DNA of 64,000 nt. It comes from Closterium sp. NIES-65. Its lineage: Eukaryota; Streptophyta; Zygnematophyceae; Desmidiales; Closteriaceae. Below the pieces are notes generated by a model. The model saw only the letters and a list, made by a program, of their open reading frames with translations. It searched no databases and was not told the DNA's origin. The DNA lies in NCBI GenBank assembly GCA_948144175.1, contig CANXME010002314.1:62001-126000 (forward strand), written 5' to 3'. Of the stretch, positions 1,429 through 64,000 are shown piece after piece (the stretch's first letter is position 1; every line of letters starts with the position of its first letter). The position numbers were made by a program, and so were the translations under genes.

Positions 1429-4400
1429 TCAGGCCGCCCTGGCAGGGGCGTGCCGCTCCTCATACTCGTCTTCCAAGGTCTGCCAAAGGTCCCCCAGCCT
1501 GGGTGCCCAAGGGTCCGCCGCTGTCTGTGGGAAGGCCGTGTCCGCCGCTCGGTTGGACTTGGAGAGGATGGAGATCGCCTGGCTGCGCTGGAGCACCATG
1601 GACCACCGTTGCCTGAAGTGTGCATTGAGTCGGGCGGCGGTCGTCGTGAGGCGTCCCTTCCTGTATTTCGTCTTGGCGGCATGGGTGGCTAGCAAACGGA
1701 TGAACTGCTGCGTGTCCTTAGCCAGAGCCCCATACGTCTCTACCGCCAGCCCAAAAAACCCAGCGTAGCTAGGGCGGCCCTCGTAGAGCCTGTGCTTTCC
1801 CTCGGAAGCTTCCTCCGCTGCCCACCCAGGCGACTTCCTGGCTCTCTTGTCCCGCCTCTGCAATACCGGATCCGTGACCGTGACATCCGTTACCCACGTT
1901 TCCCCTGACTCCTGGTCTCGGATGGCCAGGTCTGCACGCTTTCGGAGGACGGGGGGAGAGAAAGCCGTGGTCTCATGGAACGTCTTGTAACCCGCATCCT
2001 TGGCCATCCTGAGAGCCGCGAAAACCAGGGCGTGGTGGGTCCTTACGACGTCCCCTCCATCCCCACACCGCAGGAGGTGGTTGGGGAGGCTCTTATCGGC
2101 GATCGTCGCGTTTTCCCGCTTGCACGGACACACCTCGGCGACCGGCAGCTCCATGCCCAACCGCAGGCCCAAGGCCATCGAGAATTGACCAGGGGATAAG
2201 CTAAGGTCTCCTCTCGTTGGGATGGCATGGAGCCAGTCACCTGCACCCACCCCCTTGAGGCTGATGAGGCGGATGGCGTGGCCCCTGTCCTCCCCCGGCC
2301 GGTCCTAAAGTGTGTCTGCTAGGAGTTCCAACGCCCGCCGCTGGTTGATAGACTTGGACAGCCCCAGCTGCAGGTTCCCAGTGCCCAGACTCCCTGCCCT
2401 GTACTGCTCTAGTGTTGCTCGGGCTTCAGCAGGGAGGTTACCCTCCATCGTGGCTCTGGGGTTGGTCTCAGGTGGCAGTGGGGCCCACTCGTGGGAGAGG
2501 AGCTGTGTCGCCCGGCTCAGGAGGCAGTCCGTTGGCAGGTTCAGCTGCCTCAGTAGGATGTGTGCCGCCGTGACTGAAGCCAGGTATGCCGCGGGTGCCT
2601 CAGAGATAGGGTCGATCACCCCGAGGCCGCCCAGGCGGATGGGGAGTGTCCCCTGACGCCATAGCAGGCTCTGCTCAAGCTCGGAGGTGGGGATCCGTAG
2701 TTTCGCCGCGGTGAGCGCCGAGCCCAGGAGAGCCTCACTCCACTCCCTCCATTCTCGCGCACTTAGTGTTGAAGCCGGGGTCGTCCGGAGCATGTACGAG
2801 ATCCGCCGTGAGATGCTGCGTGAGACCATAAGGAGCGCGTGCTGCGGGTTCAGTTGTGAAATGAGGAGGAGCGGTGATGCCGCCTCCCCCAGCGCCGCCC
2901 GTACGTGGTCCGTGCAGAAGTCATCAGTCCCAACTGGGCTGCCCAACACCTTGATTCCTCCCGGGTTCGAGGTCAGCCCAAGCGGCAACTCCTCCTGCTG
3001 CTCGCTCGCGTTCCTCCCCCAGGCCGTTGATTTGGCAATGTTGCATCGCAGTCCTGCTTTTCCCAAAGCCGCAGCGATCGTGTCGAAGGCGAGGCAGGCG
3101 GCTTCACGCGGGCCGACAATCGTAATGTCGTCGGCGTAGGCAACGATCGCCACATCCGGCAGAGTAGTGGCCACACTCAGCAGGGCTGGCTGGATCGCCG
3201 CCGCGAACAGGAGCGGGCCGAGTGGATCGCCTTGGCGAACTCCGCGGGAGCTCAGGATGTACTCAGTGTCAAAACGCTGGTCGACCACGAGCCTCGACGG
3301 GCCGTCGTAGAGGTTTCGGACCAGGGGGAGTAGGGGGTTGAGGTTAGACCATTGCAGCGCCTCGAAGAAAGCCCTGCGTTCGACGCTGTTGAACGTGTTC
3401 TCTACGTCCAGCTGCAGCGCGATCCGCGGGACGTCCTCCTGTAGTAGCGCTCTAACCGAGTGTATGATGCACTCCGCTCCCCCCGGGATGGCCACGCCGA
3501 ATTGGACCGGGAGAAAGAACTCACGGATCTTGGGGCCGAGCGAGTGTAGAGCTGCTTTCGCTAACACTCTGAGCAATGTTTCGCCAATCGCGATAGGCCT
3601 GACCCCACCCCCCGGTTTCTCCAAAGCTATCAGGCGCGAGGATAGGGCAAGGTCGCGCAGCTCCTGTGACTGGTAGGTGCTAAGGAAATTGTTAACTGTC
3701 TTGGCGAGTAGAATTAATATCTCCTCATTTGCGAGAGCAGGATCTCTTAGGTGCTCAAAGCACGTTCCAGAGGGCCCCCCACCCACCCCATTCGGGCACT
3801 TCGCCAGGATTTCGCGAAGAGCGTCGATCTGGATGGCGAGCCCAGAGGTTGCAACCCCTGTTACCCAGGCTGGAAGATCGTCTTCAGCATGTGGGTGTTT
3901 CGCCCGGAGTGCAGCGAGGGTTGCCGAACTGGGTTCAGCGAGTGGGCTGGTGCGTAACGCAGCAACCGCCTTCGAGATATTGCCCTTTTTCATTAGCCCT
4001 TCGGCACGTGCACAAACACCTTCGTCGTCCGGTTGGTGTCGTAGCGGGGCTTCGGTATCGGGGATAGTGCCAGCTTCCTCGAAAAGTCCCTCCCATTTCC
4101 CCTGCTGAAATTGGTGCAGCCGAGCCTCAATTCGAGCCCAGCGGCTCCCAATAACAGGTTCGGGAGAGGGTCGTAGTGTAAGCCTCGGTAGGAAGAGAAG
4201 AATCTTCCACGCACCTAGGCACGTGGGGAACTTCTCCAGCCTCAGAAGTGGCGCCAGCAGACAGAGGCTGTATTTGTCTAGGATTTGTGGAGGTAGGCGG
4301 CGAACAAGGAAGGGCTGGTCACTACGTTGCAGTTGCTGCATATCCCAACCCCCAGCTTCTTGCCAGATGGCCTCATCCTTCGCCATGTCAGTAGGCGAGA

Positions 4401-6150
4401 AGACATCCGTCGCATCCATTGCTCCACCTGTATCTCCCACAGCTTGTTGGTTCTGCCCATCCCCCCTCGACCCTCTTCCCCGTGTGTTGGGTGCATTCCT
4501 GTCCACCCCAGTTTCCTCCTCCAGGGACACCTCCTCAGATTCAGCTTCGTCACCACACATAAATTCTGGGTCGCCACCGTTGTCCTCAGAGCCCGCTGCT
4601 TCCTCCTCATTCGTTAGTGCTGCCCCCGCCTCTGGTCTGTCGTGGCGTTCCCGCCAGGTGCCAACTTGCACAGGGATCTCAGATCCCCCCACCAGGGCCC
4701 TTCCCCCTCGCCCTCCGCGCGCTCCCCGTGCACCGCCCCCCCGTTGAGTCCTCCCCGCGCTTGTTGGCGCTCTTGCCACCACGCCCGTAGCTCCACGTCC
4801 CGCCGGCAGCCACGGTGTCCGACCTCCGCGGGGCGGTCCCCAGGTTATTGCCGCTCGTCCCGTCGCGTGGCGGGTGTTGTGTGCAACGGCATTCGTGGTG
4901 TTTGGAGCCTCAGCGTGCACTGCCGTTGCTGGTGTTACGTTGGGAGCGGAAGCGTCCCGGGAGATTCCTGGCGGGCGACTTCCAGCCTCAGCCTCCTCTC
5001 TAACCTCTCGCTGGCTCACCGATGACGACCGATGCGCTCGCTCAGATGGCGATTGCCCTTGCAGAAGCCAGCCCAGGAGGGGTCCCGGGGAGCCAGGTCC
5101 CAGCCCTGCTCCGGGCCGTCTCGGCGCTGGCTGGGCACGCAGCTTCTTCTTCGAAACCGCCCGTGCAGCGCCGGAAGAAGCTCCGTTCGCAGGTCCCAGA
5201 AACTCACCCTCCGCTTGGCCGCGCTCCTGCCTGTTTGCGGCCGCGGCAGGTACACGCGTTCCGGCGCTCGCAGGGACAGGCGTTGCGTCAACCTCTGACG
5301 GGGCTGCGCCCTGCTCCCCAGCCGCAGCAGACACCACTGCCGCCAGCACAGCCGCCGTTACAGGTGCCGGAGACGCCGACAACACCGCCTCCGCGGTCTG
5401 CTCCTGATCCACGCCCGGGCTTGGCTCCTCCGCCTCCTTCTGTGCCGCCCGTGGGGCGGCAGCGTGTGAAGTTGAGCCGCCGCCAACGGCAGCGGCAGAA
5501 CCGCCGGCAAACACAGGGTCCGCCACCGTCTCAGCTGCAGTCGCAGCAGCAGCAACAGCTCCCTCAAGCACCAATCCAGCCGCCCTCCTAGGCACCACAT
5601 CGGCCCCCAGCACAGTCCCCACTGCGGCGTTTTCCCCTACCCTTCCAGCCGCTACCGCCTCGTCCCCCAATGCCCCAAGTTCCCCCGTCACACTTCCCGC
5701 ACGCCCCGAGCTCGCCTCCTCCCCCTGCCTTGGTTCTTGGCGCGCCCCCAACTCGCGTCGAGCAGCGCGTGATGCACGTTGGGACGTGCATGACACTCCT
5801 GTCATATGTGCTCGACCAGCTACACGTGACACTGGTGCAGCAGGAGGTGCAGATCGAGGCGATGCAGCCGGCGGAGCAGTCGGCGGCGGTGGCGGTGGCG
5901 GAGGAGCTGCAGCATTACCTCCCCCTGATTGGCTATGTGCCGGGCTCTCCTGGGGCTGCCCTCGGGCCCGGCCCTGGAGCTTTGGCGCGGCTTGCTGCTT
6001 CGGCCCGGGGCGACCCGCTCTACCTTGTTGCGGCAGCCGCGTCCGTCTTGCGCTGGCTAGACGGGAGGCTGTGTTGGATCCTCGTTGAGTAGCGGTAGAC
6101 TTCCCCTTGCCAGCCCCCTTTGTAGCAGGTCTGGGTTTGGGCTTCCCCAT
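1429..6150 (-). pseudogene. L1 sense ORF: reverse transcriptase plus RLE-like endonuclease, one in-frame stop
   Basis: The longest minus-strand frame starts at 6150 and runs 1281 codons to a TAG at 2305-2307. The same frame then continues to 1429, for about 1573 codons in all. The related L3 has a sense codon at the position of the TAG, so this is a single nonsense change. The first ~450 residues are Ala/Gly/Pro/Glu-rich and probably disordered. RT motifs follow: a LIALEKPGGG stretch, RQGDPLGPLLF, and YADD at residues 1005-1008. After the stop come a Cys/His cluster (CPC ... NHLLRC) and an RLE-like core RADLAIRD ... VTDVTVTDP, then FRQRWSMVLQ. By homology this protein nicks target DNA and reverse-transcribes the LINE RNA. 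The N-terminal third overlaps an antisense ORF and may not be translated as such. Confidence 0.85.
5022..6092 (+). pseudogene. L1 antisense ORF, counterpart of the type A antisense protein
   Basis: A plus-strand frame opens with ATG at 5022 and runs to 6092 with a single TAG at 5589-5591. It uses the same phase relative to the sense frame as the type A antisense ORFs: its third base is the sense second base. The first half is Pro/Gln-rich with basic patches (RRKKLRSQ, KLSRRQRQRQNRRQ). The last ~115 codons look like packed helices (LLSYVLDQLHVTLVQQEVQIEA, then VAEELQHYL and LVAAAASVLRWL). Position, composition and helical C-terminus parallel the L4 and L5 proteins, but residue identity is low, so homology is inferred. 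The upstream TATA-like element (CATAAATT near 4555) is weak and distant. No known family recognised. Confidence 0.5.
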
Positions 6151-6256
6151 GGCGGTGTATACACGCCCGGGGGTGTTGTTGTACCTGCCGTAGATCTATG
6201 CCTCCTTTTTGTATTGCCCCATGTTGACCTGCCAGGAGCTTACTCCCTTGCCACAC

Positions 6257-17398: not shown

Positions 17399-18835
17399 AT
17401 GGTGATTGCTGGTGTGACCGATTATTCGCCAATGCGCGCTGGCGCTGCGTCGGTTGTACTCGAAAGGCCGTCGTCTGCCTCAGGAGCGAGGACCAAGGCG
17501 ACGGGCTCCCCGCCGCTGTCTGTTCCGTCGCCCGGCCTAGTAGCCGCTGAAAAGACTCCTCCCCTCGAATCCGCACGTCCTCTTGTCGTGAACGGGGTTG
17601 AGCCGTCTGCGCCGATGGTTGCTCCTCCCGCTCCGCCTGTCGCGCCCGCTCCGCCTGTTCTCCCTGTTCCTGCCGTGCCGCTGGCGGCATCTGCTCCTGC
17701 CGGAGAGGTCGCCGCTCATCCTGTCCCTGTGCCTAGCGTTCCAGCTGCACCTGCCGGTGCTGTCCCCGGCGTGCCGGCGCTGGCGTCTGCTTCTTCGTCG
17801 CTTGCGGTGTCCACCACCACTGGCGGCCCGCCCTCGGTGGTTGCTCTTCCGAGCGCGGATCAGTCTCCTCCCGTTCCACCGCCGGCGGCTCCGGTTGTTC
17901 CGCCGTCTCATCCCCCGTCCCCTGACCGCCGCTTGTCCCGGCCCCATTCTCCAGCGCCCCAGCAGGAGCGCGAGACGTCTCGGCGCCGGCGGAACTCCCC
18001 CCGGCGCTACCAGCAGCAGGCCCAGTGGCCAACGCATCCAGGTGGCAGTGGGGGATGGCGGGGCCCCCCGGGGCGCGGTGGAGGCGGGTGGTATCGGCCG
18101 CCAGTGACGCTGGCGGACCTCCAGCGCGAGGTGTCGCGGGAGGTGTCGCGCGCCGTACGTCAGGGGAGGGCAGCGCCGAGCCAGAGCAGTTCGCGGCAGG
18201 CTGCTCCGGAGCCCGTTGCTCCTAGTTCGCCTGTGCATCCTGTAGCCCCTCCGCCGGCTGTTGCTCCTCTTCCTCTTGTCCCTGCCCCGTCCGTTCCTTC
18301 TCCTTCTGTTGCGGCGCCGGCGACCGGCTCCCGCCTGCATCTGCCACCTGTTCCGCCTGTCGCAGGGGTAGAGTTCGTGGCGGCGGGTAGTGGCGCGGCT
18401 GCGGCTCCGTACGCAGCTGATGAGTCCCTCCGGTTCCTGGCGGCGGCTCTGCTGCCTCCGCAGACGCGCGTTCCTGAGACAACGCTTGGTCAGCTTCACC
18501 GTCTCGCGGAGAGCCTGCATGCTCTGCTTCTGATTCAAGTGCTTGCGCACTCGTCTCTCCCTGCTGTCCCGCCCGAGTCCTTTTGCAGCCACCTGCGTGA
18601 CCCGTGCCTCGACGCAGCTGACCAGCTCGCGGAGCTGCTGGCGCCCGTGCTGGCTGCGCCCGCGGAGGGAGGCGCTGCTGCCGCGGGACAGCTTGGTGAG
18701 GCTGTCCGTGCACTGCGGCGATACTTGCACGCAGGATCCGGAGCCGCGGCGATCGGCGCAAGCACGCTTGTGGTCCGGGAGCTGTGGCGCTCCCTGACGG
18801 GCATCCTCCATGCCCTTGGAGCTCACCGCATGTAG
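17399..18835 (+). CDS. L2 antisense ORF: candidate ORF1-like nucleic-acid-binding protein
   Basis: A 478-codon plus-strand frame, opposite the 5' part of the LINE sense ORF. I chose ATG 17399 (MVIAG) because L4 and L7 begin the same way; the frame is open six codons further upstream. Parts: a Pro/Ala/Val-rich first ~180 residues; a Ser/Arg segment (SRRRRNSPRRY); an RGG-like stretch (RGPPGRGGGG); a short helix (DLQREVSREVSRAV); and a C-terminal ~120-residue helical domain ending ILHALGAHRM. The frame is intact although the opposite sense frame carries two nonsense codons here. I recognise no known family. Arg-rich and RGG-like motifs suggest RNA or DNA binding, as in LINE ORF1 proteins; this is an inference. 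Confidence 0.65.
   Translation: MVIAGVTDYSPMRAGAASVVLERPSSASGARTKATGSPPLSVPSPGLVAAEKTPPLESARPLVVNGVEPSAPMVAPPAPPVAPAPPVLPVPAVPLAASAPAGEVAAHPVPVPSVPAAPAGAVPGVPALASASSSLAVSTTTGGPPSVVALPSADQSPPVPPPAAPVVPPSHPPSPDRRLSRPHSPAPQQERETSRRRRNSPRRYQQQAQWPTHPGGSGGWRGPPGRGGGGWYRPPVTLADLQREVSREVSRAVRQGRAAPSQSSSRQAAPEPVAPSSPVHPVAPPPAVAPLPLVPAPSVPSPSVAAPATGSRLHLPPVPPVAGVEFVAAGSGAAAAPYAADESLRFLAAALLPPQTRVPETTLGQLHRLAESLHALLLIQVLAHSSLPAVPPESFCSHLRDPCLDAADQLAELLAPVLAAPAEGGAAAAGQLGEAVRALRRYLHAGSGAAAIGASTLVVRELWRSLTGILHALGAHRM

Positions 18836-28949: not shown

Positions 28950-29036
<87 letters not shown>
28950..29036. repeat. (CT)n / (GA)n microsatellite between L3 and L4
   Basis: A pure CT run of about 87 bp. 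It is the 5' boundary of truncated L3 and the 3' boundary of intact L4. Confidence 0.97.
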
Positions 29037-29127: not shown

Positions 29128-32100
29128 CTACAACTCTACGAGGGGCTCAATCACAGCAAAGCAGTCCCCTAGATGCAACTCATCCCCAATTCCTCCCACC
29201 GGCGGGTTCTCAACCGCCGCCGCCTCCCCAAGCTTGAGCAGGAGGCCTATAGATTGGGCCCTTTGCAGGGCCACAGACCAGCGCTGCCTGAACTGGTGCA
29301 GGAACTTTGCAGCATAGAACGATTTAGAGTCGGCGTTGAAGTGCCGCCGAGCTGCAGTGTCCGCTAAGAGCTTCAAAAAGGCTGGTACCTCCGCACACGG
29401 GCAGCCATAGGTGTCCACAGCCAGGGGGAAGAAGGTCACCGTCTCTGGTAGGGAGGCGTAGTGCTGGATTTTCTTGTCCGCTTGCTCCCGGGCCGCCCAG
29501 CCCCTGCCCTTCTGTGCCTCCGGGTCCCTTGTGCTAATGGGGTCGGTGATGGTGACATCACATACATAGACGGCCCCACTGCTTCTGTCCGTCATTGTAA
29601 AATCTGCCGTCTGTTCCTCAACGGGGCAGTGCGCTGAGGACTCTCTGTGAACGATGAAACCCGCGTCCTGGGCCATGCTGACACAGGCATCGCGCAGCTC
29701 GTTGTGGGTGTTGATGCGATGCTTGCCTGTGCCGCAGCGGAGAAGGTGATTCGGGAGGCGGGGGTCCGTGATCTCCGTGTGGTCCGCACAGTCGCAATTC
29801 TTCGGCGTGGAGAAGGGGAGGGCCAGCCGGAAACGTACGGCATTGGAAAAGTGAGTGGGCCCTATCCTCCTGTTGGCCGCAATCGGGATAGCGGTCAGCC
29901 AATCCCCAGTCCCGTACCCCGTCATTGAGTACATCCGCTGCGTATGTCCGCATAAGGGGTTCACCGCCATCTCCCTCGTCGCCTGCACCTGCGCCGCATA
30001 TCTACTCCCATGCACCCTTAGCGCCAATGCGTGCTGGAGCCTCACATCAGTTCGCTCCAGCCGTTCTTTCTCCAGGACTTCTCGCGCATCGTCGGGTAAC
30101 GCTGCTTCACACTCCAACAGCCACGTGTGAAGGGGTGTGGTGGTGTCAGCGGGCAACTGCATGTGGTCCCGCGCCTGCGCCAGCGCGCCCTCAGGAGCGC
30201 CGTCTAGTGATGCGATGAAAAGCGCCGCCTGCGTGAAGCTCGCTGCGAACCCGAAAACACCCTCGACCAGCGGGTCAGTAATGCCTATCCCTCCCAAAGA
30301 CGGCGGCAGAGACGCCTGCGCCCAGACACGTGCTTGCTCGGTACGGCAGGTGGGGACGCGAAGGTGGCATGCTGTGAGTAGGGCCGCTAGCAGGTCTGTC
30401 CCCCACTGGCTCCAGGTCTCTCGCGGCAAAAGGGAGAGCGGTGTTGTTCTGGTAAGGTATGCCACACGCCTCGAAATGCAGCGGGTGAGTAATAACGAGG
30501 CTACCTGCGGGTCGGCTTTCTCGAGCAGTGGCAGGGGTTTGGCCATCTCCTGCAGCTGACCCGACAGGAACTGTGACGCCCCACTGTCAGGCCCCACAAA
30601 GCTTCCGAGCAAGCGAACACCATCCTGGGAGAATGGTACGTCGTGCGGCAGCAGATCCTTTACTGCTGCTTGTGTGCTCCAAGCTGCGCATTTCTGCGCA
30701 TTATGCCGTAATCCCAGGTGTGCCAGCTGCTCGGTGAAGTGGTTGAAGGCTGCTACAGTAGCCGTCGCCTCCCCCAGGAATGTGACGTCGTCGGCGTATG
30801 CCAGACACAGCACCTGGGGGTGTGCTGCAGCAGTGTCGCGGAGTGTAGTGTGCATACCTGCCGCAAACAGTAGTGGGCCAAGTGGGTCCCCTTGGCGCAC
30901 GCCCCGTTCGCTGATCAGTGGGTCCGATCCAAAATTCGCGTCGACGAATAATTTCGACGGGTTACCGTATGTCAGTTTCACCAGCGGCAGTAGTGGCGAC
31001 AATTCTGGTCCTTGTAACGCTGTCGCGATGGCTTGCCGTGAAATACTGTTGAATGCATTTGAGATGTCGGTTTGCAGCACGAGGCTGTTGGGAAGCTTGT
31101 CCAGATACGCCCGTGCCACGTGGATGACTGCCTCGGCTCCTCCAGGCACGGCTACGCCATACTGTAGAGGTAGGAAAAAGGCCCGCGCGGCCTCTCCCAT
31201 GGCTGCGAGGGCTGCTTTGGCAGTCAGCCGCGTGATGCATTCGCCAATGGCGATTGGTCGAGCCCCCCCACCAGGTTTGGCCAGGGCAATGAGCCGTGAA
31301 GCTCTCAGTAGGTCCGACACCGGTGCTGGAAGGTTGCCCCCCAAAATGGTGTTAACCAAGGCGTGCAGATGGGTGCTAACTCGTCTATTCGTGATTGCCG
31401 CGTCGCGCATGTGTTCGAATGTCGTTCCCGATGGCCCAGCACCGACCCCATTTTCACACCTTCCCAACAGTTTGGCGAAGTCAGCCTGGGTGATGAACAA
31501 TTTTGACTCAGGCGAGGGTGGCCACGTCGTCTCCCCTGCTTCGGCTGGCGGGTGTTTCTGTCGAAGCTCCTCCAGAATTTCCGGAGTTGGGGTGCAGACT
31601 GGCGTTGACTCCAACGCCAGCACAGCGCGTCGTAGGCTACCCCGTTTCGCCAGGCCCTCGGCCCTGCTGATGACCCCGGTTGCGTCGGGCTTGTGACGTG
31701 GAGGCGTGGGAGTGTTGACTGCTTCGATCGCATCCTGGTACAGTTGACCCCACTCGCCACGTTGGAAGGCTCGGAGCCGGGCCTTGATCTGGGGCCAGTT
31801 TGGTTTCCGTGGCGAGGTCTGGCGAAGCGTCAGACGTGGCAGAAATAGGAGTAGGCGCCAACCTGCCTCTCCTTCCGGGTTTCGTGACAGGTTGAGTAAC
31901 GGGGTTAGCAGCGCCAGCGAAAACAACTGGCACAAATTGGGCGGTAACCGCCTTGCCAGGGATGGTTGTCGACTATCGCAGAGGGCTGGGATATCCCAGT
32001 TCTCAACGCCAGCGAACAGATCTGCTCGCGTCGCCAACTCCTCTGGCGTAAAATAGCGCGGGGGATTGGGATTGTCTCGCACCGATGCCGCTGCCGTCGC

Positions 32101-34002
32101 GGCCCGATTTCTCCCGGTGCGGCCCGGCCTTGCTTGTGATGGTGCGGTTGGAATTTCGCCCGTACGATTGCCATCGGACGGTCCAGCCGCGGTGGTCGTT
32201 CCCTCTCCTCGGGACCGCCTTGTTCTCGCTCCTGTCCTTCTCCCATTCTCCTCTACCCCTTCCTCTGCTTCCGACCCTTCCTCCGCACTGGATGGGGTTG
32301 GCTCTTCTCTATAAGAGGGGTCATTTTCTTCTTCGTCATTAAGTAGCCTAGTTAAAGCCCTTCTGGCCTCCCTCTGATAGCCATTTTCTGGCCCACCTCC
32401 TCGACCGCTACCTGCTGCCCGCCCATCGCCTCGCGCTTCCTGTCCTCGCGATGGTGATTGCTGGTGTGACTGATTATTCGCCAATGCGCGTTGGCGCCGC
32501 GTCGGTTGTACTCGAAAGGCCGTCGTCTGCCTCAGGAGCGAGGACCGAGGCGACGGGCTCCCCGCCACTGTCTGTTCTGCCGCCCGGCCTAGTAGCCGCT
32601 GAAAAGACTCCTCCCCTCGTATCCGCACGTCCTCTTGTCGTGAACGGGGTTGAGCCGTCTGCGCCGATGGTTGCTCCTCCCGCTCCGCCTGTCGCCCCCT
32701 CTCCGCCTGTTCTCCCTGTTCCTGCCGTGCCGCTGGCGGCATCTGCTCTTGCCGGGGGGGTCGCCGCTCATCCTGTCCCAGGGCCTGGCGTTCCAGCTGC
32801 ACCTGCCGGTGCTGTCCCCGGCGTGCCTGTGCTGGCGTCTGCTTCTTCGTCGCCTGCGGTGTCCGCCACCACTGGCGGCCCGCCCTCGGTGGTTGCTCTT
32901 CCGAGCGCGGATCAGTCTCCTCCCGTTCCACCGCCTGCGGCTCCGGTTGTTCCGCCGTCTCGTCCCCCGTCGCTTGACCGCCGCTTGTCCCGGCCCCATT
33001 CTCCCGCGCCACCGCAGGAGCGCGAGACGTCTCGGCGCCGGCGGAACTCCCCCCGGCGCTACCAGCAGCAGGCCCAGTGGCCAACGCATCCAGGTGGCAG
33101 TGGGGGATGGCGGGGCCCCCCGGGGCGCGGTGGAGGCGGGTGGTATCGGCCGCCAGTGACGCTGGCGGACCTCCAGCGCGAGGTGTCGCGGGAGGTGTCG
33201 CGCGCCGTACGTCAGGGGAGGGCAGCGCCGAGCCAGAGCAGTTCGCGGCAGGCTGCTCCGGAGCCCGTTGCTCCTCGTTCGCCTGTGCATCCTGTAGCCC
33301 CTCCGCCGGCTGTTGCTCCTCTTCCTCTTGTCCCTGCCCCGTCCGTTCCTTCTCCTTCTGTTGCGGCGCCGGCGACCGGCTCCCGCCTGCATCTGCCACC
33401 TGTTCCGCCTGTCGCGGGGGTAGAGTTCGTGGCGGCGGGTAGTGGCGCGGATGCGGCTCCGTACGCTGCTGATGCGTCTCTCCGGTTCCTGGCGGCGGCT
33501 CTGCTGCCTCCGCAGACGCGCGTTCCTGAGACAACGCTTGGTCAGCTTCACCGTCTCGCGGAGAGCCTGCATGCTTTGCTTCTGATTCAAGTGCTTGCGC
33601 ACTCGTCTCTCCCTGCTGTCCCGCCCGAGTCCTTTCGCAGCCACCTGCGTGACCCGTGCCTCGACGCAGCTGACCAGCTCGCGGAGCTGCTGGCGCCCGT
33701 GCTGGCTGCGCCCGCAAGGGGAGGCGCTGCTGCCGCGGGACAGCTTGGTGAGGCTGTCCGGAGCTTGAAGCGGCACTTGCGCGCTGGATCTGGAGCCGCG
33801 GCGATCGGCGCAAGCACAATTGTGGTCCGAGAGCTGTGGCGCTCCCTGACGGGCATTCTCCATGCCCTTGGAGCTCACCGCTTGTAGGCGCGGGCTCTTC
33901 TTGCGCTGTTGGGGCAGCTTGCACGGCTTGACGCGTACGGGATGTGGCGGCCGCGTGCTCCGGGAGCTCACCGCTGCTAGTTGCGGGCTCCTCTTGCTCC
34001 AT
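29128..34002 (-). CDS. L4 sense ORF: reverse transcriptase with Cys/His motif and C-terminal RLE-like endonuclease (1624 codons)
   Basis: An unbroken frame. Residues 1 to ~330 are Ala/Gln/Pro-rich and overlap the constrained antisense ORF, so the true start may lie further in. A conserved patch RQWWRTP occurs near residue 378. The RT domain spans about 880-1150: LIALAKPGGG near 900, DISNAFNS near 975, RQGDPLGPLLF near 1035, YADD at 1069-1072. A Cys/His motif follows: C1403, C1405, H1419, C1423, with spacing C-x-C-x13-H-x3-C. The RLE-like core is TAD1467 ... D1482-VTITDP, then FRQRWSVALQRAQ. In R2-like LINEs such a nuclease nicks the target and RT primes from the nick (established for that group). 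GA-repeat targeting is inferred from the flanks. Confidence 0.93.
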   Translation of the reverse strand: MEQEEPATSSGELPEHAAATSRTRQAVQAAPTAQEEPAPTSGELQGHGECPSGSATALGPQLCLRRSPRLQIQRASAASSSGQPHQAVPRQQRLPLRAQPARAPAAPRAGQLRRGTGHAGGCERTRAGQQGETSAQALESEAKHAGSPRDGEADQALSQERASAEAAEPPPGTGETHQQRTEPHPRHYPPPRTLPPRQAEQVADAGGSRSPAPQQKEKERTGQGQEEEEQQPAEGLQDAQANEEQRAPEQPAANCSGSALPSPDVRRATPPATPRAGGPPASLAADTTRLHRAPGGPAIPHCHLDALATGPAAGSAGGSSAGAETSRAPAVARENGAGTSGGQATGDETAEQPEPQAVEREETDPRSEEQPPRAGRQWWRTPQATKKQTPAQARRGQHRQVQLERQALGQDERRPPRQEQMPPAARQEQGEQAERGRQAEREEQPSAQTAQPRSRQEDVRIRGEESFQRLLGRAAEQTVAGSPSPRSSLLRQTTAFRVQPTRRQRALANNQSHQQSPSRGQEARGDGRAAGSGRGGGPENGYQREARRALTRLLNDEEENDPSYREEPTPSSAEEGSEAEEGVEENGRRTGARTRRSRGEGTTTAAGPSDGNRTGEIPTAPSQARPGRTGRNRAATAAASVRDNPNPPRYFTPEELATRADLFAGVENWDIPALCDSRQPSLARRLPPNLCQLFSLALLTPLLNLSRNPEGEAGWRLLLFLPRLTLRQTSPRKPNWPQIKARLRAFQRGEWGQLYQDAIEAVNTPTPPRHKPDATGVISRAEGLAKRGSLRRAVLALESTPVCTPTPEILEELRQKHPPAEAGETTWPPSPESKLFITQADFAKLLGRCENGVGAGPSGTTFEHMRDAAITNRRVSTHLHALVNTILGGNLPAPVSDLLRASRLIALAKPGGGARPIAIGECITRLTAKAALAAMGEAARAFFLPLQYGVAVPGGAEAVIHVARAYLDKLPNSLVLQTDISNAFNSISRQAIATALQGPELSPLLPLVKLTYGNPSKLFVDANFGSDPLISERGVRQGDPLGPLLFAAGMHTTLRDTAAAHPQVLCLAYADDVTFLGEATATVAAFNHFTEQLAHLGLRHNAQKCAAWSTQAAVKDLLPHDVPFSQDGVRLLGSFVGPDSGASQFLSGQLQEMAKPLPLLEKADPQVASLLLTRCISRRVAYLTRTTPLSLLPRETWSQWGTDLLAALLTACHLRVPTCRTEQARVWAQASLPPSLGGIGITDPLVEGVFGFAASFTQAALFIASLDGAPEGALAQARDHMQLPADTTTPLHTWLLECEAALPDDAREVLEKERLERTDVRLQHALALRVHGSRYAAQVQATREMAVNPLCGHTQRMYSMTGYGTGDWLTAIPIAANRRIGPTHFSNAVRFRLALPFSTPKNCDCADHTEITDPRLPNHLLRCGTGKHRINTHNELRDACVSMAQDAGFIVHRESSAHCPVEEQTADFTMTDRSSGAVYVCDVTITDPISTRDPEAQKGRGWAAREQADKKIQHYASLPETVTFFPLAVDTYGCPCAEVPAFLKLLADTAARRHFNADSKSFYAAKFLHQFRQRWSVALQRAQSIGLLLKLGEAAAVENPPVGGIGDELHLGDCFAVIEPLVEL
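32310..32317 (+). promoter_or_regulatory. Plus-strand TATA box ahead of the L4 antisense ORF
   Basis: TATAAGAG, 141 bp upstream of ATG 32451. On the sense strand the same bases encode part of DPSYRE. Similar boxes lie at matching places in L2, L5 and L7. Confidence 0.5.
32451..33887 (+). CDS. L4 antisense ORF: candidate ORF1-like nucleic-acid-binding protein (478 aa)
   Basis: The plus-strand frame starts at an ATG with purine at -3 and G at +4. Residues 1 to ~180 are Pro/Ala/Val-rich. Around 185-205 lies an Arg/Ser segment (SRRRRNSPRRYQQQ). Around 219-235 is an RGG-like stretch, and around 236-253 YRPPVTLADLQREVSREVSRAV. Residues ~360-478 form a predicted helical domain (LGQLHRLAESLHALLLIQVL ... 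VVRELWRSLTGILHAL). Over 29 codons at 33528-33614, L4 and L5 differ at 21 bases, 16 of them at third positions of this frame, with two residue changes. In the sense frame those bases are second positions. This indicates selection on the antisense protein. No known family recognised; RNA or DNA binding is inferred. Confidence 0.75.
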   Translation: MVIAGVTDYSPMRVGAASVVLERPSSASGARTEATGSPPLSVLPPGLVAAEKTPPLVSARPLVVNGVEPSAPMVAPPAPPVAPSPPVLPVPAVPLAASALAGGVAAHPVPGPGVPAAPAGAVPGVPVLASASSSPAVSATTGGPPSVVALPSADQSPPVPPPAAPVVPPSRPPSLDRRLSRPHSPAPPQERETSRRRRNSPRRYQQQAQWPTHPGGSGGWRGPPGRGGGGWYRPPVTLADLQREVSREVSRAVRQGRAAPSQSSSRQAAPEPVAPRSPVHPVAPPPAVAPLPLVPAPSVPSPSVAAPATGSRLHLPPVPPVAGVEFVAAGSGADAAPYAADASLRFLAAALLPPQTRVPETTLGQLHRLAESLHALLLIQVLAHSSLPAVPPESFRSHLRDPCLDAADQLAELLAPVLAAPARGGAAAAGQLGEAVRSLKRHLRAGSGAAAIGASTIVVRELWRSLTGILHALGAHRL

Positions 34003-34083
34003 GTATCTCTTAGGCCTGTTTGGTGTGATGCATGCTTGTATATTTTCCTATACTTGCTTATGTCCCTGCTTTCCTTGCCGACC

Positions 34084-34150
34084 CTCACGCGCGGCCGAAG
34101 GCCGCGCAATCGAGCGTCGGCCGCCGAAGGCGGCCGGCGCGAGCCGCTCG
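34084..34150 (-). other. Pseudoknot-capable double hairpin at the L4 5' end
   Basis: Two perfect hairpins: arms 89-95/101-107 and 119-124/130-135 of the 34000 block, with CUUCG loops on the sense RNA. In addition CTCACGC (34084-34090) can pair with GCGCGAG (34137-34143), and CGAGCG (34111-34116) with CGCTCG (34145-34150). The last two pairings cross, giving a nested double-pseudoknot layout like that of HDV-type ribozymes. I do not see the expected A-rich catalytic joining strand, so only structure is claimed. Confidence 0.6.
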
Positions 34151-34261
34151 GTTAGGAGGGCACACGAACTATGAAACGAATAATGAGGCACTAGGAACAG
34201 ATCCTAGGGCCTTTATACTAGGCTGGAGGGGGCTGGAGAGGCTAAGGACTAGCTCCTAGGG

Positions 34262-34262
<1 letters not shown>
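34151..34262 (-). promoter_or_regulatory. L4 5' module with TATA box
   Basis: TATAAAG on the minus strand at 34210-34216, with an initiator-like CTCATTATTC about 25 bases downstream. The module is bordered by a CT tract on the right and by the hairpins on the left. Sequence outside these motifs is only loosely conserved among copies. Confidence 0.6.

Positions 34263-34339
<77 letters not shown>
34263..34339. repeat. (CT)n / (GA)n microsatellite between L4 and L5
   Basis: A pure CT run of about 77 bp: the 5' border of L4 and the 3' border of L5. Confidence 0.97.
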
Positions 34340-34342
<3 letters not shown>

Positions 34343-34427
34343 CGGTCCTCCATTGATATAACATGCCGTACAACAAGTATAGTTATCACACAACAGAAAC
34401 AAACATGTGAGTGACTACCCATGCTCC

Positions 34428-37400: not shown

Positions 37401-39149
37401 GTCCTGCTCCCCTCCACCCGAGGGTGGCCTGCTTGGGGCCCGGCTTGGTGTTGGGTTTGCTCGGCGGTGTCCTTCCGCTTCCTCGTCAACCCCTCCTGAT
37501 TCCTCCGTTGTTGATTCAGCTGCTGCTGGTGCTATATAAGTAGGGTCACTCGCCTCCTCGTTATTAGCCCGTCTTAAAGCCCGCCCAGCCGCTCTCTGGA
37601 AACCGTTCTCGGGTCCTCCTCCCCGTCCAGCTGTGCCTCTGCGACCTCCGCCTCGTCCGGCCCGAGATGCCTGTGGCACTAGGCGACGGGATGCATTATC
37701 CACCACTGCCCTTTGTCGTGGCGTCTGCTGTGGCTGCTCCTCCGGTTGTATCGGCATTTGCGCGGGCGGCTGCGGAGATGTCGCCGCATCACGTACCATT
37801 ACCTGCTCCTCCTGCTGCCCAGGCTCCCGCGACTGTTGAGGCGCCTCCTCCCGAGGGGAAGTCTGCTCCTGCTGTCCCGCCGCCAGAGGTCCCGAACCTC
37901 GCGGCACCACTTGGCGTGTCCGCTCCCGATGCTGCTCCTGTTCCCCTCGTTCCCTCTGCTGCGCCGGTCGCACCTGCTCCCCCCGAGAGTTTTGCTGCTC
38001 ACCCTGCGTCTGTCCCTGGCGCGCCCGCTGTTCCAGCCGCTTCTGTTCTCGGCGTGCCTGCGCCGGAATCTGCTTTGTCACCGAAGGCGGTGTCCGCCAC
38101 CACTGGCGGCCGAGCCCCGATGGTCGCACCTCCGGCCGTGGACTCGACTGCTCCTGTTGCGCTGCAGGCGGGCCCGGTGGCGCAGACGTCCCGTCCTCCG
38201 TCGCCAGACCGCCGTCAGTCCCGGCCCCATTCTCCCGTGCCTCAACAAGAGCGCGAGTCGTCGCGGCGTCGCCGAAACTCTCCTCGGCGCTACCAGCAGC
38301 AGGCCCAGTGGTCTGGCCACGCTGGTGGCAATGGGGGCTGGAGGGGTCCCCGCGGGCGTGGTGGTGGTGGGGCATACCGCCCGCCCGTGACCCTGGCTGA
38401 TCTTCAGCGGGAAGTGTCAAGGGCGGTGCGCGAGGAACGGGCGGCGCAAAGCCACAGTAGTTCGCCGCGGTCCGCGCCGGCGCATGTGGCTCCCCGTCAG
38501 GCACTCCCTCCCGAGGGCCTTGCCCCTGCTGCTGCGCCTCCTCCTCCTCCTCATGCTCCATCGCCCCCGGCTCCTGCTGCCTCGGCCCCTGCTCCTGGCT
38601 CTCGTCTCCGCCTTCCCCCTGTTCCGCCCGTGGCGGGTGTGGAGTTCGTGGCTGTTGGTGGTGGGGCGGCTGGGGCGCAGCACACCCCTTATACCGCTGT
38701 TGACGACCCGCTTTCGTTTTTGGCGGTGGCCCTTCAGCCCCCGCCGACCCGTGTACTTGAATCGACCCTCGGGCAATTGCACCGTCTGGCAGAGAGCCTG
38801 CACGCCCTGCTGCTGATTCAGGTGCTGGCTCATGCGTCTCTCCCTCCGATCCCTGCTGACTCATTTCGTGACAGGCCGCGCGAGACCTGTCTGGACGCGG
38901 CGGACCAGCTCGCGCAGCTGCTGGCGCCCGCGTTGGCAGCGCCCGCAGAGGGTGGCGTTGCGGCTGTGGGACAGCTGGACGAGGCTGTCCGGGGCTTAAG
39001 GCGGCACCTGCGCGCAGGGTCTGGAGCCGCGGCGATCGGCGCAAGTACGCTGGTGGTCCGGGAGCTGTGGCGGACTTTAACTGGCATTCTCCATGCCCTT
39101 GGAGCTCACCGGATGTAGATCCGGGCTCCGCTTGCGCTCGTGTCGCCAT
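34428..39149 (-). CDS. L5 sense ORF: reverse transcriptase with Cys/His motif and RLE-like endonuclease (1573 codons)
   Basis: An unbroken frame. The N-terminal ~330 residues are Pro/Gln/Glu-rich and overlap the antisense ORF. GLGRQWWRTP is the first patch well shared with L4 and L7. RT motifs: LIALAKPGGG, DLANAFNS, RQGDPLGPLLF, and FADD at 1018-1021 (a common variant of YADD). The Cys/His motif has C1351, C1353, H1367 and C1371, the same unusual spacing as L4. The RLE-like core reads KADLAFRD (D1415) ... LADVTITDP (D1430), followed by FRQRWSVALQRAQ. By family it performs target-primed reverse transcription in the nucleus. The true start codon is uncertain for the reason given for L4. Confidence 0.93.
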   Translation of the reverse strand: MATRAQAEPGSTSGELQGHGECQLKSATAPGPPAYLRRSPRLQTLRAGAALSPGQPRPAVPQPQRHPLRALPTRAPAAARAGPPRPDRSRAACHEMSQQGSEGETHEPAPESAAGRAGSLPDGAIARGSIQVHGSAGAEGPPPKTKAGRQQRYKGCAAPQPPHHQQPRTPHPPRAEQGEGGDESQEQGPRQQEPGAMEHEEEEEAQQQGQGPREGVPDGEPHAPARTAANYCGFAPPVPRAPPLTLPAEDQPGSRAGGMPHHHHARGDPSSPHCHQRGQTTGPAAGSAEESFGDAATTRALVEARENGAGTDGGLATEDGTSAPPGPPAAQQEQSSPRPEVRPSGLGRQWWRTPPSVTKQIPAQARREQKRLEQRARQGQTQGEQQNSRGEQVRPAQQRERGEQEQHRERTRQVVPRGSGPLAAGQQEQTSPREEAPQQSREPGQQEEQVMVRDAATSPQPPAQMPIQPEEQPQQTPRQRAVVDNASRRLVPQASRAGRGGGRRGTAGRGGGPENGFQRAAGRALRRANNEEASDPTYIAPAAAESTTEESGGVDEEAEGHRRANPTPSRAPSRPPSGGGEQDPLAPDTTAPPPQTRQFSPEQLARDDARFDEIGNWDLSPLRDSRQPPLSRKLPADIRPLFASALLTPLLRLARYPDSVAGWRLLLFLPRLTLRLPSTEKPDWPAVKQRLRQFLKGEWTQLYDSAAAAINGPQPPRHTPDDQGRRARAEGLTRKGSLRRAILALESTPVADPSADTLAALKAKHPRAPAGLIDWTIPGTEQPASIDMGAFVKILCRCENGVGGGPSGMTFEHMRDAAIANSGVTTHLHALVNTILKGNLPDEICSLLTASRLIALAKPGGGTRPIAVGECILRIAAKSALASLSEACRAHFLPLQYCVSVQGGSEAIIHAARTFTHANPGALILQTDLANAFNSISRAAIVDALRGSALQGIIPLTRISYGKPAQLFLDAGFECEPLISETGVRQGDPLGPLLFAAGIHPALTKTAAAFPSVMCLAFADDVTFLGEPLECSKAFCHFIEGLRDVGLRHNPEKCAAWSAAAVDPHVLPQGVPFCEEGLRVLGSFIGSQEGAAAFLRSQLESMSTPLPHLSKMDPQVTSLLLTRCISRRISYLARTTPLYLLPEAEWTRWGRALLHALLDACGVRHPRGESEAARIWDQASLPPSLGGLGLADPVVEGRYSFLASLVQAHSLLSPLPGQAGSHLTAALHSLEAANTSPNELQRWINDCRESLTQEARDLIASELAKPAGQLQHRLALIVQGSRSAAQITASRQLELNPRAGHTLRLISLTGYGAGDWLLAIPYMPALRLCPEHFTFALQFRLGLPMSVPKCCDCVKRVAILDKRLPNHLLRCGTGHGRTNTHNELRDECIRMAQDAGFAVHKECTAFSPVDNKKADLAFRDRTSGAVWLADVTITDPISKQDERARKGRGWAVREQADKKIGLYHGRADFAGFFPLAVETYGCPCEEVPTFLKLLADTAARKLFNADPSTYQAAKMLHQFRQRWSVALQRAQAVSFLMKLNLAAQAENPPLGGPEGELNPGDCFATLEPPHRGC
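37533..37540 (+). promoter_or_regulatory. Plus-strand TATA box ahead of the L5 antisense ORF
   Basis: TATATAAG, 134 bp upstream of ATG 37667, at the position that corresponds to TATAAGAG in L2 and L4, although the surrounding sequence has diverged. Confidence 0.5.
37667..39118 (+). CDS. L5 antisense ORF: candidate ORF1-like nucleic-acid-binding protein (483 aa)
   Basis: Plus-strand frame of the same length and layout as in L4. Its N-terminal Pro/Ala-rich part aligns poorly. From SATTGG onward it aligns well: SRPHSP, SSRRRRNSPRRYQQQ, RGPRGRGGGG, YRPPVTLADLQREVSRAV. The C-terminal ~120 residues are nearly the same as in L4 (LGQLHRLAESLHALLLIQVL, CLDAADQLAQLLAP, VVRELWRTLTGILHALGAHRM). The corresponding sense-strand residues match much less well. 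The region between the stop at 39118 and the hairpins holds no other ORF. The same caveats on function apply as for L4. Confidence 0.75.
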   Translation: MPVALGDGMHYPPLPFVVASAVAAPPVVSAFARAAAEMSPHHVPLPAPPAAQAPATVEAPPPEGKSAPAVPPPEVPNLAAPLGVSAPDAAPVPLVPSAAPVAPAPPESFAAHPASVPGAPAVPAASVLGVPAPESALSPKAVSATTGGRAPMVAPPAVDSTAPVALQAGPVAQTSRPPSPDRRQSRPHSPVPQQERESSRRRRNSPRRYQQQAQWSGHAGGNGGWRGPRGRGGGGAYRPPVTLADLQREVSRAVREERAAQSHSSSPRSAPAHVAPRQALPPEGLAPAAAPPPPPHAPSPPAPAASAPAPGSRLRLPPVPPVAGVEFVAVGGGAAGAQHTPYTAVDDPLSFLAVALQPPPTRVLESTLGQLHRLAESLHALLLIQVLAHASLPPIPADSFRDRPRETCLDAADQLAQLLAPALAAPAEGGVAAVGQLDEAVRGLRRHLRAGSGAAAIGASTLVVRELWRTLTGILHALGAHRM

Positions 39150-39231: not shown

Positions 39232-39298
39232 CTCACGCGCGGCCGGAGGCCGCGCTGTCGAGCGTCGGCCGCCGAAGGCGGCCGGCGCGAGCCGCTCG
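39232..39298 (-). other. Pseudoknot-capable double hairpin at the L5 5' end
   Basis: Same design as at L4. CTCACGC (39232-39238) can pair with GCGCGAG (39285-39291). CGAGCG (39259-39264) can pair with CGCTCG (39293-39298). Two GC hairpins lie inside; one loop differs (CGGAG instead of CGAAG), consistent with a loop under little constraint. Confidence 0.6.
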
Positions 39299-39425: not shown

Positions 39426-39512
<87 letters not shown>

Positions 39513-39516
39513 CTGT
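39426..39516. repeat. (CT)n / (GA)n microsatellite at the L5 5' border
   Basis: CT run, pure to about 39504, then with ATCT interruptions. Confidence 0.95.
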
Positions 39517-39695
39517 CTTTCGCTCTTTCGAACGAGCTGCCCTATTTGCAGAGAGAATGAACTCACCGCAGAACAATGGGAAAGAGAGAGGGCTCCTCAC
39601 CCCTATATACCCGGGAACTAGGCCGAGATGGCTAAGGAATAGGCTGGCTAAGGAACTAGGCTGAAAAAAAATGGCTAAGGACTAGGACCCAAGGG
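39517..39695 (-). promoter_or_regulatory. Solo LINE 5' module (third type) with TATA-like box
   Basis: Lies between two CT tracts with no LINE body. The minus strand has TATATAG at 39603-39609. The rest shares the GGCTAAGGA / CTAGG wording of other modules, especially the one at 6311-6466. It is probably what remains of another LINE copy. Confidence 0.45.
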
Positions 39696-48375: not shown

Positions 48376-48378
48376 CTG

Positions 48379-62771: not shown

Positions 62772-64000
62772 ATGGTGATTGCTGGTGCATCTGAGCCATC
62801 GCCAGTGCGCGCTGCCGCCTGGTCGGCTGTGGTCGCCCAGCCTCAGTCGGGGCCCGGAAAGGCGACCATGCCGACGGAGACCCCTCTACCGCTGGCTCCG
62901 ACGCCCTCCACAACAGTCGCTGAAAAGACTCTTCCCCACGCACTCGCGGATCCCCTTGCCGTGTCGGGGGCTGGCCCGTCTGTTCCTGCGGCTGCTCCGT
63001 CCGCTCCGCAGGCTGCTCCTGTTCCCCTGGCCCTCTTCGTCGAGCCGTTGGTGCCTGCTCCTGCTGGGGGTGTTGCTGATCCCCCAGTTCTTGTCCCTGG
63101 TGCGCCCGTTGCTCCGCCTGCTTCCGTCCTCGACGCGCCTGTACTGGCTTCTGTTTCGTCGACAAAAGCGGCGTCCGCCACCACTGGCGGCCCGGCTCCG
63201 TCGGTTGCGCCCTCAGCAGCGGGGCAATCCGCGCCTGCTGTGGCGCCGATGGCCCCGGCAGGTCAGCCGTCACGTCTCCCGTCGCCTGACCGCCAACCGT
63301 CTCGCCCTCATTCCCCCTCGCCCCACCAGGATCGCAAATCGTCTCGTCGCCGTCGTGATTCTCCGCGGCGATACCAGCAGCAGCCTCACTTGCCTGCTCA
63401 CCCCGATGGTCAGGGGGACTGGAGGGGTCCCCGCGGGCGCGGTGGTGGTAGGGGGTACCGCCCGCCGGTGACGATGGTAGATCTTCAGCGGGAAGTGTCG
63501 AGGGCGGTACATGAGGAGAGGGCTTCGCAGAGCCAGAGCAGTTCGATGCGCGCCTCGCCGGCCCAAGAGGCTCCACCCCAGCCTGTGCTCCCGTCGAGTC
63601 CACCGCCTATTGCTGCACCCCCTCCTCAGGTTCAGATCCCAACGGCTCCTGCTCCTGCTGCGTTCGCGCCCGCCTCTGGAGCGCGTCTTCGCTTGCCGTC
63701 GGTTCCGCCTGTTGCGGGGGTGAAATTTGCGGCCGCTGGTGGCGGCGCGTTTTCGACGCAGTATTCGCATCCCGCTGATGGGGATCAGCAGCTCCTGTTC
63801 CTGGCGGAGGCGCTTCAGCCTCCGCAGACTCGTGTTCCGGAGGCGACACTCGGCCAACTCCATCACCTCGCTGAGAGTCTTCACGCGCTGCTGCTGATTC
63901 AGGTGGTTGCACATTCGTCTCTCCCCGTAATCCGTCCTGAGTCATTCCGTGGCCACTAGCGTGACACCTGCCTGGACGCGGCAGACCAGCTCGCGGTGCT
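62772..64000 (+). pseudogene. L7 antisense ORF: candidate ORF1-like protein, one stop, runs off the window
   Basis: The plus-strand frame starts with MVIAG as in L2 and L4 and keeps the same order: Pro/Ala-rich part, SSRRRRDSPRRYQQQ, RGPRGRGGGRG, YRPPVTMVDLQREVSRAV, then ATLGQLHHLAESLHALLLIQVVAHSSLP. A TAG at 63957-63959 interrupts it; the same frame goes on with RDTCLDAADQLAV to the window edge. Over 29 codons (63840-63926) L7 and L4 differ at 22 bases, 18 of them third positions. So the frame was under selection until recently, even though this LINE is now dead. Confidence 0.65.

Follow-up and report, generated by a model that had tools for sequence, protein, structure and literature searches.

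Antisense genes in retroelements have real precedents, both in LTR retrotransposons and in ORF0 of L1. In the portions of the published accounts available to us, plant Retand-type LTR elements carry a conserved antisense gene (the Grande gene23, RIRE2 and TRP28 proteins), with a TRP28 antisense protein predicted to bind DNA and a promoter of its own reported in Grande (PMC7264820, PMC11963269). Likewise, partial accounts place human L1 ORF0 in antisense orientation close to the 5' end of the LINE, with an antisense promoter and a reported stimulation of retrotransposition (PMC7746726), and describe HTLV-1 HBZ and HIV-1 ASP as proteins encoded by the antisense strand of retroelements (PMC10186651). 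For the RLE LINEs, the excerpted description gives insertion into repeats as common in the group (PMC4640811). We found no antisense gene in an RLE LINE in the open-licence literature, which agrees with the sequence-only reading of this DNA that no RLE LINE with an ORF1-like gene on the opposite strand had been described.

The window, i.e., the whole 64,000-nucleotide stretch of Closterium sp. NIES-65 DNA analysed here, contains four copies of such a LINE (L2, L4, L5 and L7), whose features are as follows.

17399..18835, plus strand: antisense ORF of L2, open; two stops interrupt the L2 sense frame within the overlap
28950..29036, no strand: (TC)n tract at the 3' end of L4
29128..34002, minus strand: sense ORF of L4, from the upstream ATG (34002) through the reverse transcriptase (RT) to a C-terminal Cys/His and endonuclease-like region
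32451..33887, plus strand: antisense ORF of L4, 478 codons plus stop (ATG at 32451, stop at 33885-33887), wholly inside the sense ORF
32946..33236, plus strand: antisense residues 166-262, a segment rich in Arg that contains RS and RGG-like motifs; net charge +13 over 97 residues
33471..33884, plus strand: antisense residues 341-478, forming a conserved C-terminal domain; the antisense N/S at 33552-33887 is 0.26
33888..34262, minus strand: sense 5' leader of L4 and first sense codons, without codon periodicity
34263..34339, no strand: (TC)n tract separating the 5' end of L4 from the 3' end of L5
34428..39149, minus strand: sense ORF of L5, from the first ATG
37667..39118, plus strand: antisense ORF of L5, open
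62772..63959, plus strand: antisense ORF of L7, close to the window edge; its stop precedes the conserved end

The element is an RLE-type (R2-like) LINE with a second gene of about 480 codons on the opposite strand, in the 5' third of its long sense ORF. Its RT domain matches PF00078 (E 7.4e-19), and the best PDB sequence matches of the RT are R2 proteins (E 3.5e-10), so that the element has the R2-related RT of RLE (R2-type) LINEs. By eye, L4 and L5 share the pattern CDC..HLLRC and AD..DVTIT..KK..Y, which may be a Cys/His motif and a PD-(D/E)xK-like endonuclease; Pfam endonuclease models gave no match in the sense protein. Searches of viral_contigs and genome_contigs with the RT returned nothing informative. 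A (GA)n run was found at the 5' end of all 13 aligned copies, and L4 is flanked by (TC)n tracts.

Matches to chlorophyll-binding proteins, an LHC protein and a beta-tubulin with the Chlamydomonas entry 6u42 as its best PDB match point to a green-lineage eukaryote as the host. In total, 38 copies were aligned, four from the window and 34 from elsewhere in the genome. When coordinates were compared, 42 of the 46 genomic matches picked by RT, among the matches listed, had an adjoining antisense match; the remaining four, on inspection, comprised one copy with an internal deletion, one that is frameshifted and also has a sense stop, one that reads as N and one 5'-truncated copy. Between the copies L022 and L4, identity is 94% in the antisense C-terminus and 80% in the RT, and 5' ends seem to have been exchanged between LINE subfamilies. 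Such exchange may inflate the counts of changes, but codon phase should not arise from it.

The sense ATG lies 7-38 codons upstream of the antisense stop, an in-frame one being present in all 22 full-length copies, and thus the antisense gene is wholly nested. The sense N-terminus that spans it is a low-complexity stretch of about 600 residues. Throughout 32451-33887 the third base of the antisense codon is the second base of the sense codon, as previously noted, and therefore the antisense frame cannot be a shadow of the sense frame there. The frames previously reported in L4, L5 and L2 were confirmed at their coordinates, all of them open; the L7 frame, put at about 480 codons, is indeed open from 62772 and is ended by its stop at 63959, ahead of the conserved end. 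Another minus-strand ORF of 520 codons (32589-34151; 505 codons in L2, 17537-19054) was rejected as a sense ORF1, its frame M0 having an N/S of 1.2-1.4 and 133 stops over the 38 copies. Two further observations concern composition: the AT skew is -0.38 in 32001-34000, and a 378-codon plus-strand open frame is also found opposite the RT.

The antisense protein is under purifying selection. In the main substitution test, based on 36 of the 38 copies (L026 and L027 excluded) and 2558 parsimony changes over 32352-33887, with ancestral states from one random parsimony resolution on a single tree, the antisense N/S, relative to expectation, was 0.33 at 32952-33251, 0.47 at 33252-33551 and 0.26 at 33552-33887 (0.25, 0.44 and 0.20, respectively, on internal branches). 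The sense-frame N/S at 32952-33887 was 1.5-2.9. The stretch 32451-32951 differs: there the antisense protein is only slightly constrained (0.94; 0.82 on internal branches) and the sense protein, with 0.67, is the more constrained of the two. Two controls within the same element used 18 of the 22 full-length copies (L010, L018, L026 and L027 excluded): the RT in its sense frame gave an N/S of 0.20-0.36, near the antisense value, and all six frames of the 5' leader gave 1.0-1.5. A phase scan along the element covered seven of the 22 copies, including the frameshifted L026. Purifying selection on the antisense protein, first claimed from a hand alignment, has therefore gained stronger evidence, although it is the antisense side that is constrained at 32952-33887 and the sense side at 32451-32951.

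The same phase is seen in pairs of copies. At 32952-33887 the differences by antisense codon position are 47/48/138 for L4-L5, 45/50/117 for L4-L7 and 47/40/111 for L5-L7, a third-position excess with chi-square p values of 5e-16 to 1e-10, and L4 and L5 are 0.74 identical in antisense amino acids vs 0.48 in sense. At 32451-32951 the L4-L5 signal is mixed (56/75/81), and the excess is not found in every pair, L031-L034 having 43/50/47 over the whole ORF. Of the earlier hand counts, that for L4-L7 (22 differences, 18 at third positions) was reproduced identically; that for L4-L5 kept its 16 third-position differences, with a total of 20 instead of 21. The minus-strand frame M2, which shares its wobble positions with the antisense frame, was rejected as a real gene: it carries 412 stops over the 38 copies, and its ratio of 0.49 is thus read as a shadow of the antisense frame.

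Regarding its function, the Arg-rich segment and the conserved C-terminal domain suggest a nucleic-acid-binding, ORF1-like role for the antisense protein, and we consider it probable that the selected, nested gene encodes a helper of this kind. An internal antisense Pol II promoter would yield a separate mRNA, whose product would be an accessory protein that binds nucleic acid and has a disordered N-terminus rich in Pro and Ala. The Arg-rich segment could be the part that binds RNA or DNA, the conserved and probably helical C-terminus could serve as an association domain, and the protein might coat or chaperone the element RNA or cDNA. The overlapped sense N-terminus would be mostly a tolerant linker obliged to stay open. 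The basic segment has a pI of 12 in one copy from each LINE family. As to promoters, no TATA-like site upstream of the antisense ATG is common to the four window copies: TTAAG lies 112 bases upstream in L4 and L2, TATATA 134 bases upstream in L5, and L7 has neither. The sense 5' leader of L4 has a TATA-like box (about 34210-34218) and two GC-rich hairpins with UUCG loops (about 34080-34145), and Rfam gave no match at gathering score on 33800-34350.

The ORF1-like partner proposed from the sequence alone stays a proposal: the protein has its RS/RGG-like segment and its conserved domain, but profile searches gave no convincing homologue in Pfam (16 members), NCBIfam (two members), PDB, IMG/VR or GTDB, and family searches matched no ORF1 or RNA-binding family. 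L1-like ORF1 proteins are marked by an RRM plus C-terminal domain or by CCHC gag knuckles, and neither was found in Pfam at E 1 among the 16 antisense proteins, where the only matches were PF05300 (9 of 16, best E 0.0049) and PF01268 (1 of 16). The PF05300 match and one to PDB 3nib (E 0.065) are weak and were taken as chance. Against a helper, moreover, R2-type LINEs are not known to need an ORF1. The gene could instead be real while its product, in place of binding RNA as a structural partner, regulates transcription, silencing or nuclear transport, in the manner of HTLV-1 antisense proteins or of those suggested for Retand/Grande LTR elements; we consider this rather unlikely. The basic segment might serve nuclear localisation or bind DNA, and known antisense retroelement proteins are, in the sections available, mostly discussed as nuclear or regulatory (PMC10186651, PMC7264820, PMC11963269). 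However, none of the 16 family-1 antisense proteins has a Pfam match to TRP28 (PF04195) or bZIP. RS/RGG-like composition is, in addition, at least as typical of RNA binders.

Both frames are maintained open, so that the same DNA shows constraint or maintenance on its two strands. The antisense frame is open as far as the conserved end in 32 of the 38 copies, a proportion inflated by the choice of copies by antisense score. Over these 38 copies it holds 24 stops, 20 of them in L026 and L027, the only copies with frame-shifting indels in the antisense ORF; the sense frame holds 25 in the overlap (one to three in 18 copies), and the four other frames 133-412 each. When the sense protein was shuffled by synonymous codons in 18 of the 38 copies, a mean of 3.2-6.5 antisense stops was expected (P 0.0005-0.026); 17 copies had none and L7 had one. 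It might be argued that at 32952-33887 the antisense gene alone is coding, the sense protein starting further downstream and its open frame being a by-product, since sense amino acids are unconstrained there and the first sense ATG within the overlap is far downstream in most L4-type copies. This is improbable: new sense stops are depleted (15 vs 38.4 expected; 4 vs 15.9 on internal branches, Poisson p 4e-4), and so they are in both stretches, 32451-32951 and 32952-33887; shuffles given the antisense protein predict 7.7-13.9 sense stops where 0-3 occur (P <=0.002 in all 18 copies tested); and the upstream sense ATG is present in 22 of 22 copies.

A second LINE family, with an RT 42% identical to that of the first, has the same layout and register and a different conserved antisense protein. 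Its window copy comprises two features.

2305..6150, minus strand: sense ORF, which opens with its ATG (protein start MGKPKP) and meets an in-frame stop at 2305-2307, past which the frame continues
5022..6092, plus strand: antisense gene with one in-frame stop (5589-5591) and a conserved C-terminal domain at 5748-6089

The layout, with the antisense stop slightly downstream of the sense ATG and the antisense third base at the sense second base, is therefore repeated. The antisense TAG stop and the sense MGKPK start occur in all 13 copies having the C-terminal domain, and the antisense ORF is intact in 6 of 15. In this domain, tested in 12 of the 15 copies (L055 was excluded; L049 and L057 lack the full domain), the N/S is 0.42 in antisense and 1.87 in sense; over the whole antisense ORF the signal weakens to 0.59 (six copies), and distant pairs show almost no codon-position preference (L054-L059, 45/43/51). 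Some copies also have a long antisense frame in the alternative register (third opposite third base), which was judged spurious by eye. The C-terminal domains of the two families have no detectable homology (hhalign probability 0.6%), and that of the second gave nothing informative against viral_contigs. Thus, either the layout is old and has diverged fast, or it arose at least twice.

That translation or the antisense RNA itself matters, and not the protein sequence, is very improbable: such a translation-based role has been proposed for the CxNV1 reverse ORF, in the part of that work available (PMC8316113), but both LINE families show amino-acid-level constraint. Least credible of all is that the A-rich composition of the sense strand gave rise to the antisense frame as a by-product, as is often so for long antisense ORFs in GC-rich DNA, a reading to which the AT skew and the frame opposite the RT (type A2; N/S 0.33-0.55, a shadow of the sense frame with shared third positions) might point, because sense selection on the RT drives the register of the antisense gene to 1.8-2.7, not down, and because, barring wrong alignments, the shuffles, the substitution tests and the replication in the second family rule it out.

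In eukaryotes, few long, fully nested antisense protein genes supported by substitutions are known. In these LINEs, statistical power comes from dozens of copies, the RT and 5' leader serve as controls within the element, and the layout recurs in a second family. It would follow that the annotation of LINEs as sense elements with one or two ORFs can miss genes. Whether this is an ambisense LINE lineage that needs transcripts from both strands, one for the RT-endonuclease and one for an essential nucleoprotein partner nested in the first gene, is a more tentative proposal, with the odds slightly against it. These elements offer a test system for the origin of overlapping genes and for making protein from both strands without self-silencing through double-stranded RNA.

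In comparison with known systems, the Retand-type elements share the conserved antisense gene within a retrotransposon, but, in the portions described, they are LTR elements whose antisense ORF has a stretch of its own, after pol and before the 3' LTR, whereas that of Closterium lies inside the sense ORF; their antisense ORF has a TRP28 domain, absent from the family-1 proteins. L1 ORF0, of about 70 codons, lies in the 5'UTR of an APE-type LINE. Like the Closterium gene, it runs antisense and lies close to the 5' end of its LINE, yet it is restricted to primate L1, short and not nested in a coding ORF, whereas the Closterium ORF is inside the sense ORF and the 5' leader carries no codon signal. 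HBZ and ASP are described, in part, as viral and driven by the 3' LTR, and the Closterium protein has no convincing Pfam match to bZIP or another family. Ambigrammatic narnaviruses also have long ORFs overlapping on opposite strands, but they are RNA viruses for which, in the excerpted account, translation itself is the proposed role (PMC8316113). The RLE LINEs R2, NeSL, Utopia and HERO have in common with the element the R2-related RT and, judging by eye, perhaps the C-terminal Cys/His and PD-(D/E)xK-like pattern. The available part of the Utopia description includes no antisense gene (PMC4640811), whereas the Closterium LINE carries one under its sense N-terminus.

The sequence-only reading had described a plus-strand frame opposite the sense ORF in four family-1 LINE copies (L2, L4, L5 and L7); all four frames are present at the places it gave, and the differences it had counted by hand, once recomputed, are correct to within one base. 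The window features concerned are as follows.

17-1092: partial LINE, its 5' leader made of two tandem units with (TC)n
1429-6195, minus strand: second, more distant LINE, with a reverse transcriptase (RT) 42% identical to that of L4
9028-15354, minus strand: copia-type open frame of 2108 codons in a strongly A/T strand-skewed stretch
30560-31696, plus strand: open antisense frame of 378 codons opposite the RT
32451-33887, plus strand: antisense gene of L4 (478 codons and a stop)
43064-51690: Copia-like stretches repeating every 5315 bases, with 100% identity between some of the pieces sampled; they may reflect either recent duplication or an artefact of assembly

Searches of the same genome (assembly of 874 Mb) with the L4 and L5 antisense proteins returned at least 84 and at least 83 matches, respectively. 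We have aligned 34 diverse fetched copies with the four window copies, and only L026 and L027 carry frame-shifting indels. The antisense ATG is at the expected site in 37 of the 38 copies, that of L5 lying two codons upstream, and from the ATG the frame is open up to its conserved end in 32. The exceptions are the two frameshifted copies and L028, L032, L042 and L7, each with one earlier stop; the terminal stop of L031 falls outside the stretch cut. Since the copies were chosen by antisense score, this openness is by itself biased. When the RT was the query, coordinate comparison placed an antisense match next to 42 of 46 RT matches, among the matches listed, the other four being damaged, truncated or unreadable in the antisense region.

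The claim that purifying selection acts on the antisense protein was borne out when both overlapping frames were analyzed over many copies, comparing parsimony changes on a 36-copy tree with the expectation from base- and CpG-dependent rates. In 32952-33887, the nonsynonymous/synonymous ratio relative to expectation (N/S) was low in the antisense frame (0.26-0.47; 0.33, 0.47 and 0.26 in three windows) and not in the sense frame (1.52-2.93; 1.77, 1.52 and 2.93). On internal branches only, where sampling bias counts least, the antisense values were 0.25, 0.44 and 0.20. As a control in 18 copies, N/S in the RT-region windows from 29131 to 32100 was 0.20-0.36 for the sense frame and 1.8-2.7 for the register that the antisense gene uses, and the 5' leader gave 1.0-1.5 in all six frames; thus, sense selection cannot mimic the antisense signal. 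The antisense register A2, whose third positions are common with the sense frame, gave 0.33-0.55 in the RT of these copies, which is a shadow of the sense frame; the antisense gene is not in this register. Because the 378-codon frame shares its third positions with the sense frame, its low ratio (0.33-0.55) is likewise attributed to a shadow effect, and the frame is considered spurious.

In a codon-phase scan of 7 of the 22 full-length copies, 34500-33901 lacked codon periodicity. From 33900 to 33001, 54-65% of differences fell on the second position of sense codons, which is the third of antisense codons; the pattern was mixed from about 33000 to 32400, and from 31950 to 29101, 50-68% of differences fell on sense third positions. 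L4 and L5 differ at antisense codon positions 1/2/3 by 47/48/138 in 32952-33887, and the same DNA is 74% identical as antisense protein versus 48% in the sense reading. The phase signal varies among pairs, and between L031 and L034 the entire ORF shows no third-position excess (43/50/47). Judged by its sequence evolution, the antisense gene is almost certainly real.

The sense frame is also maintained in the overlap. Summed over the 38 copies, this stretch contains 25 sense and 24 antisense stops, whereas each of the four remaining frames has 133-412; the sense frame is stop-free there in 20 copies and interrupted one to three times in the other 18. In 32952-33887, where 38.4 new sense stops would be expected, 15 were observed (for internal branches alone, 15.9 expected and 4 observed), and synonymous shuffles that keep the antisense protein fixed predict 7.7-13.9 sense stops per copy, with 0-3 found (P at most 0.002 in 18/18 copies tested). 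In 32451-32951 the roles are reversed (N/S 0.67 sense, 0.94 antisense). An in-frame sense ATG lies 7-38 codons upstream of the antisense stop in 22/22 full-length copies, and therefore the antisense gene is fully nested in the sense ORF.

The second LINE family, whose RT as query returned at least 78 matches, also has an antisense ORF, and its register matches that of family 1. We examined the window copy together with the 5' portions of 14 fetched copies. The ORF opens with an ATG and encodes a basic segment, a linker rich in Pro and Gln, and a C-terminal domain that finishes at a TAG 18-20 codons into the sense ORF; this TAG and the sense MGKPK start occur in 13/13 copies having the domain. 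Six of the 15 ORFs are intact (339-381 codons), with no stops in the antisense and sense frames and 1-14 in each other frame; the window copy has one in-frame antisense stop. Across 12 copies, the C-terminal domain gave N/S 0.42 antisense and 1.87 sense (antisense 0.25 without the two most distant copies). The signal is weaker when the entire ORF is taken in the six intact copies (antisense 0.59; its parts 0.52, 0.69 and 0.47), and pairs at the greatest distance show almost no codon-phase bias (L054-L059, 45/43/51). Among six further loci, the C-terminal domain is present in L061 and L063, and the N-terminal part in L062; neither part was seen by eye in open frames above 150 codons of the other three. 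Homology between the C-terminal domains of the two families was not detectable.

The L4 antisense protein has a Pro/Ala-rich N-terminus (pI 5.6), followed by a 97-residue Arg-rich segment (net +13, pI 12.0) that contains RS and RGG-like motifs, and a Pro/Ala linker leads on to the hydrophobic C-terminal domain; the basic segment of the second-family copy L058 carries net +18 over 60 residues. The family-1 protein had no convincing match in Pfam, NCBIfam or PDB. Judging from these features, our best guess is a putative nucleic-acid-binding helper, and an ORF1-like partner would be a reasonable guess; the main rival is that the product acts as a nuclear regulator. TATA-like words upstream of the antisense ATG differ among the window copies.

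The LINE 5' leader contains a pair of neighbouring GC-rich hairpins capped by UUCG loops (34080-34145, minus strand), with similar ones at about 18963-18998 and 39267-39277. The pair occurs in 11 of the 13 copies aligned, whereas the sequence on either side diverges, and Rfam gave no family at gathering score for this region; the hairpins may act as an element of the leader or mark the 3' end of the antisense transcript. L4 and L5 are arranged head to tail and bordered by (TC)n tracts (28950-29036, 34263-34339 and 39426-39529), suggesting microsatellite-directed insertion at the ends of older copies. In the partial LINE, the leader is fused to the sense ORF near residues 600-625 and the antisense-gene region is missing; it is a deletion derivative or a template switch. 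L022-L025 seem to have come to share their 5' part, antisense C-terminus included, with L4 in recent time, and the RTs are about 80% identical, suggesting 5'-end exchange between subfamilies.

The view that no RLE (R2-like) LINE had been described with an ORF1-like protein on the opposite strand agrees with our searches of open-licence papers: the titles and abstract openings of the papers listed showed no such element with an antisense protein gene. In other systems, Retand-type LTR retrotransposons have conserved antisense ORFs, but in a separate stretch (PMC7264820, PMC11963269); the antisense ORF0 is known from human L1 (PMC7746726), and in mouse L1 an antisense promoter lies within ORF1 (PMC3985663); retroviruses have the antisense genes HBZ and ASP (PMC10186651), and narnaviruses have overlapping reverse ORFs (PMC8316113).
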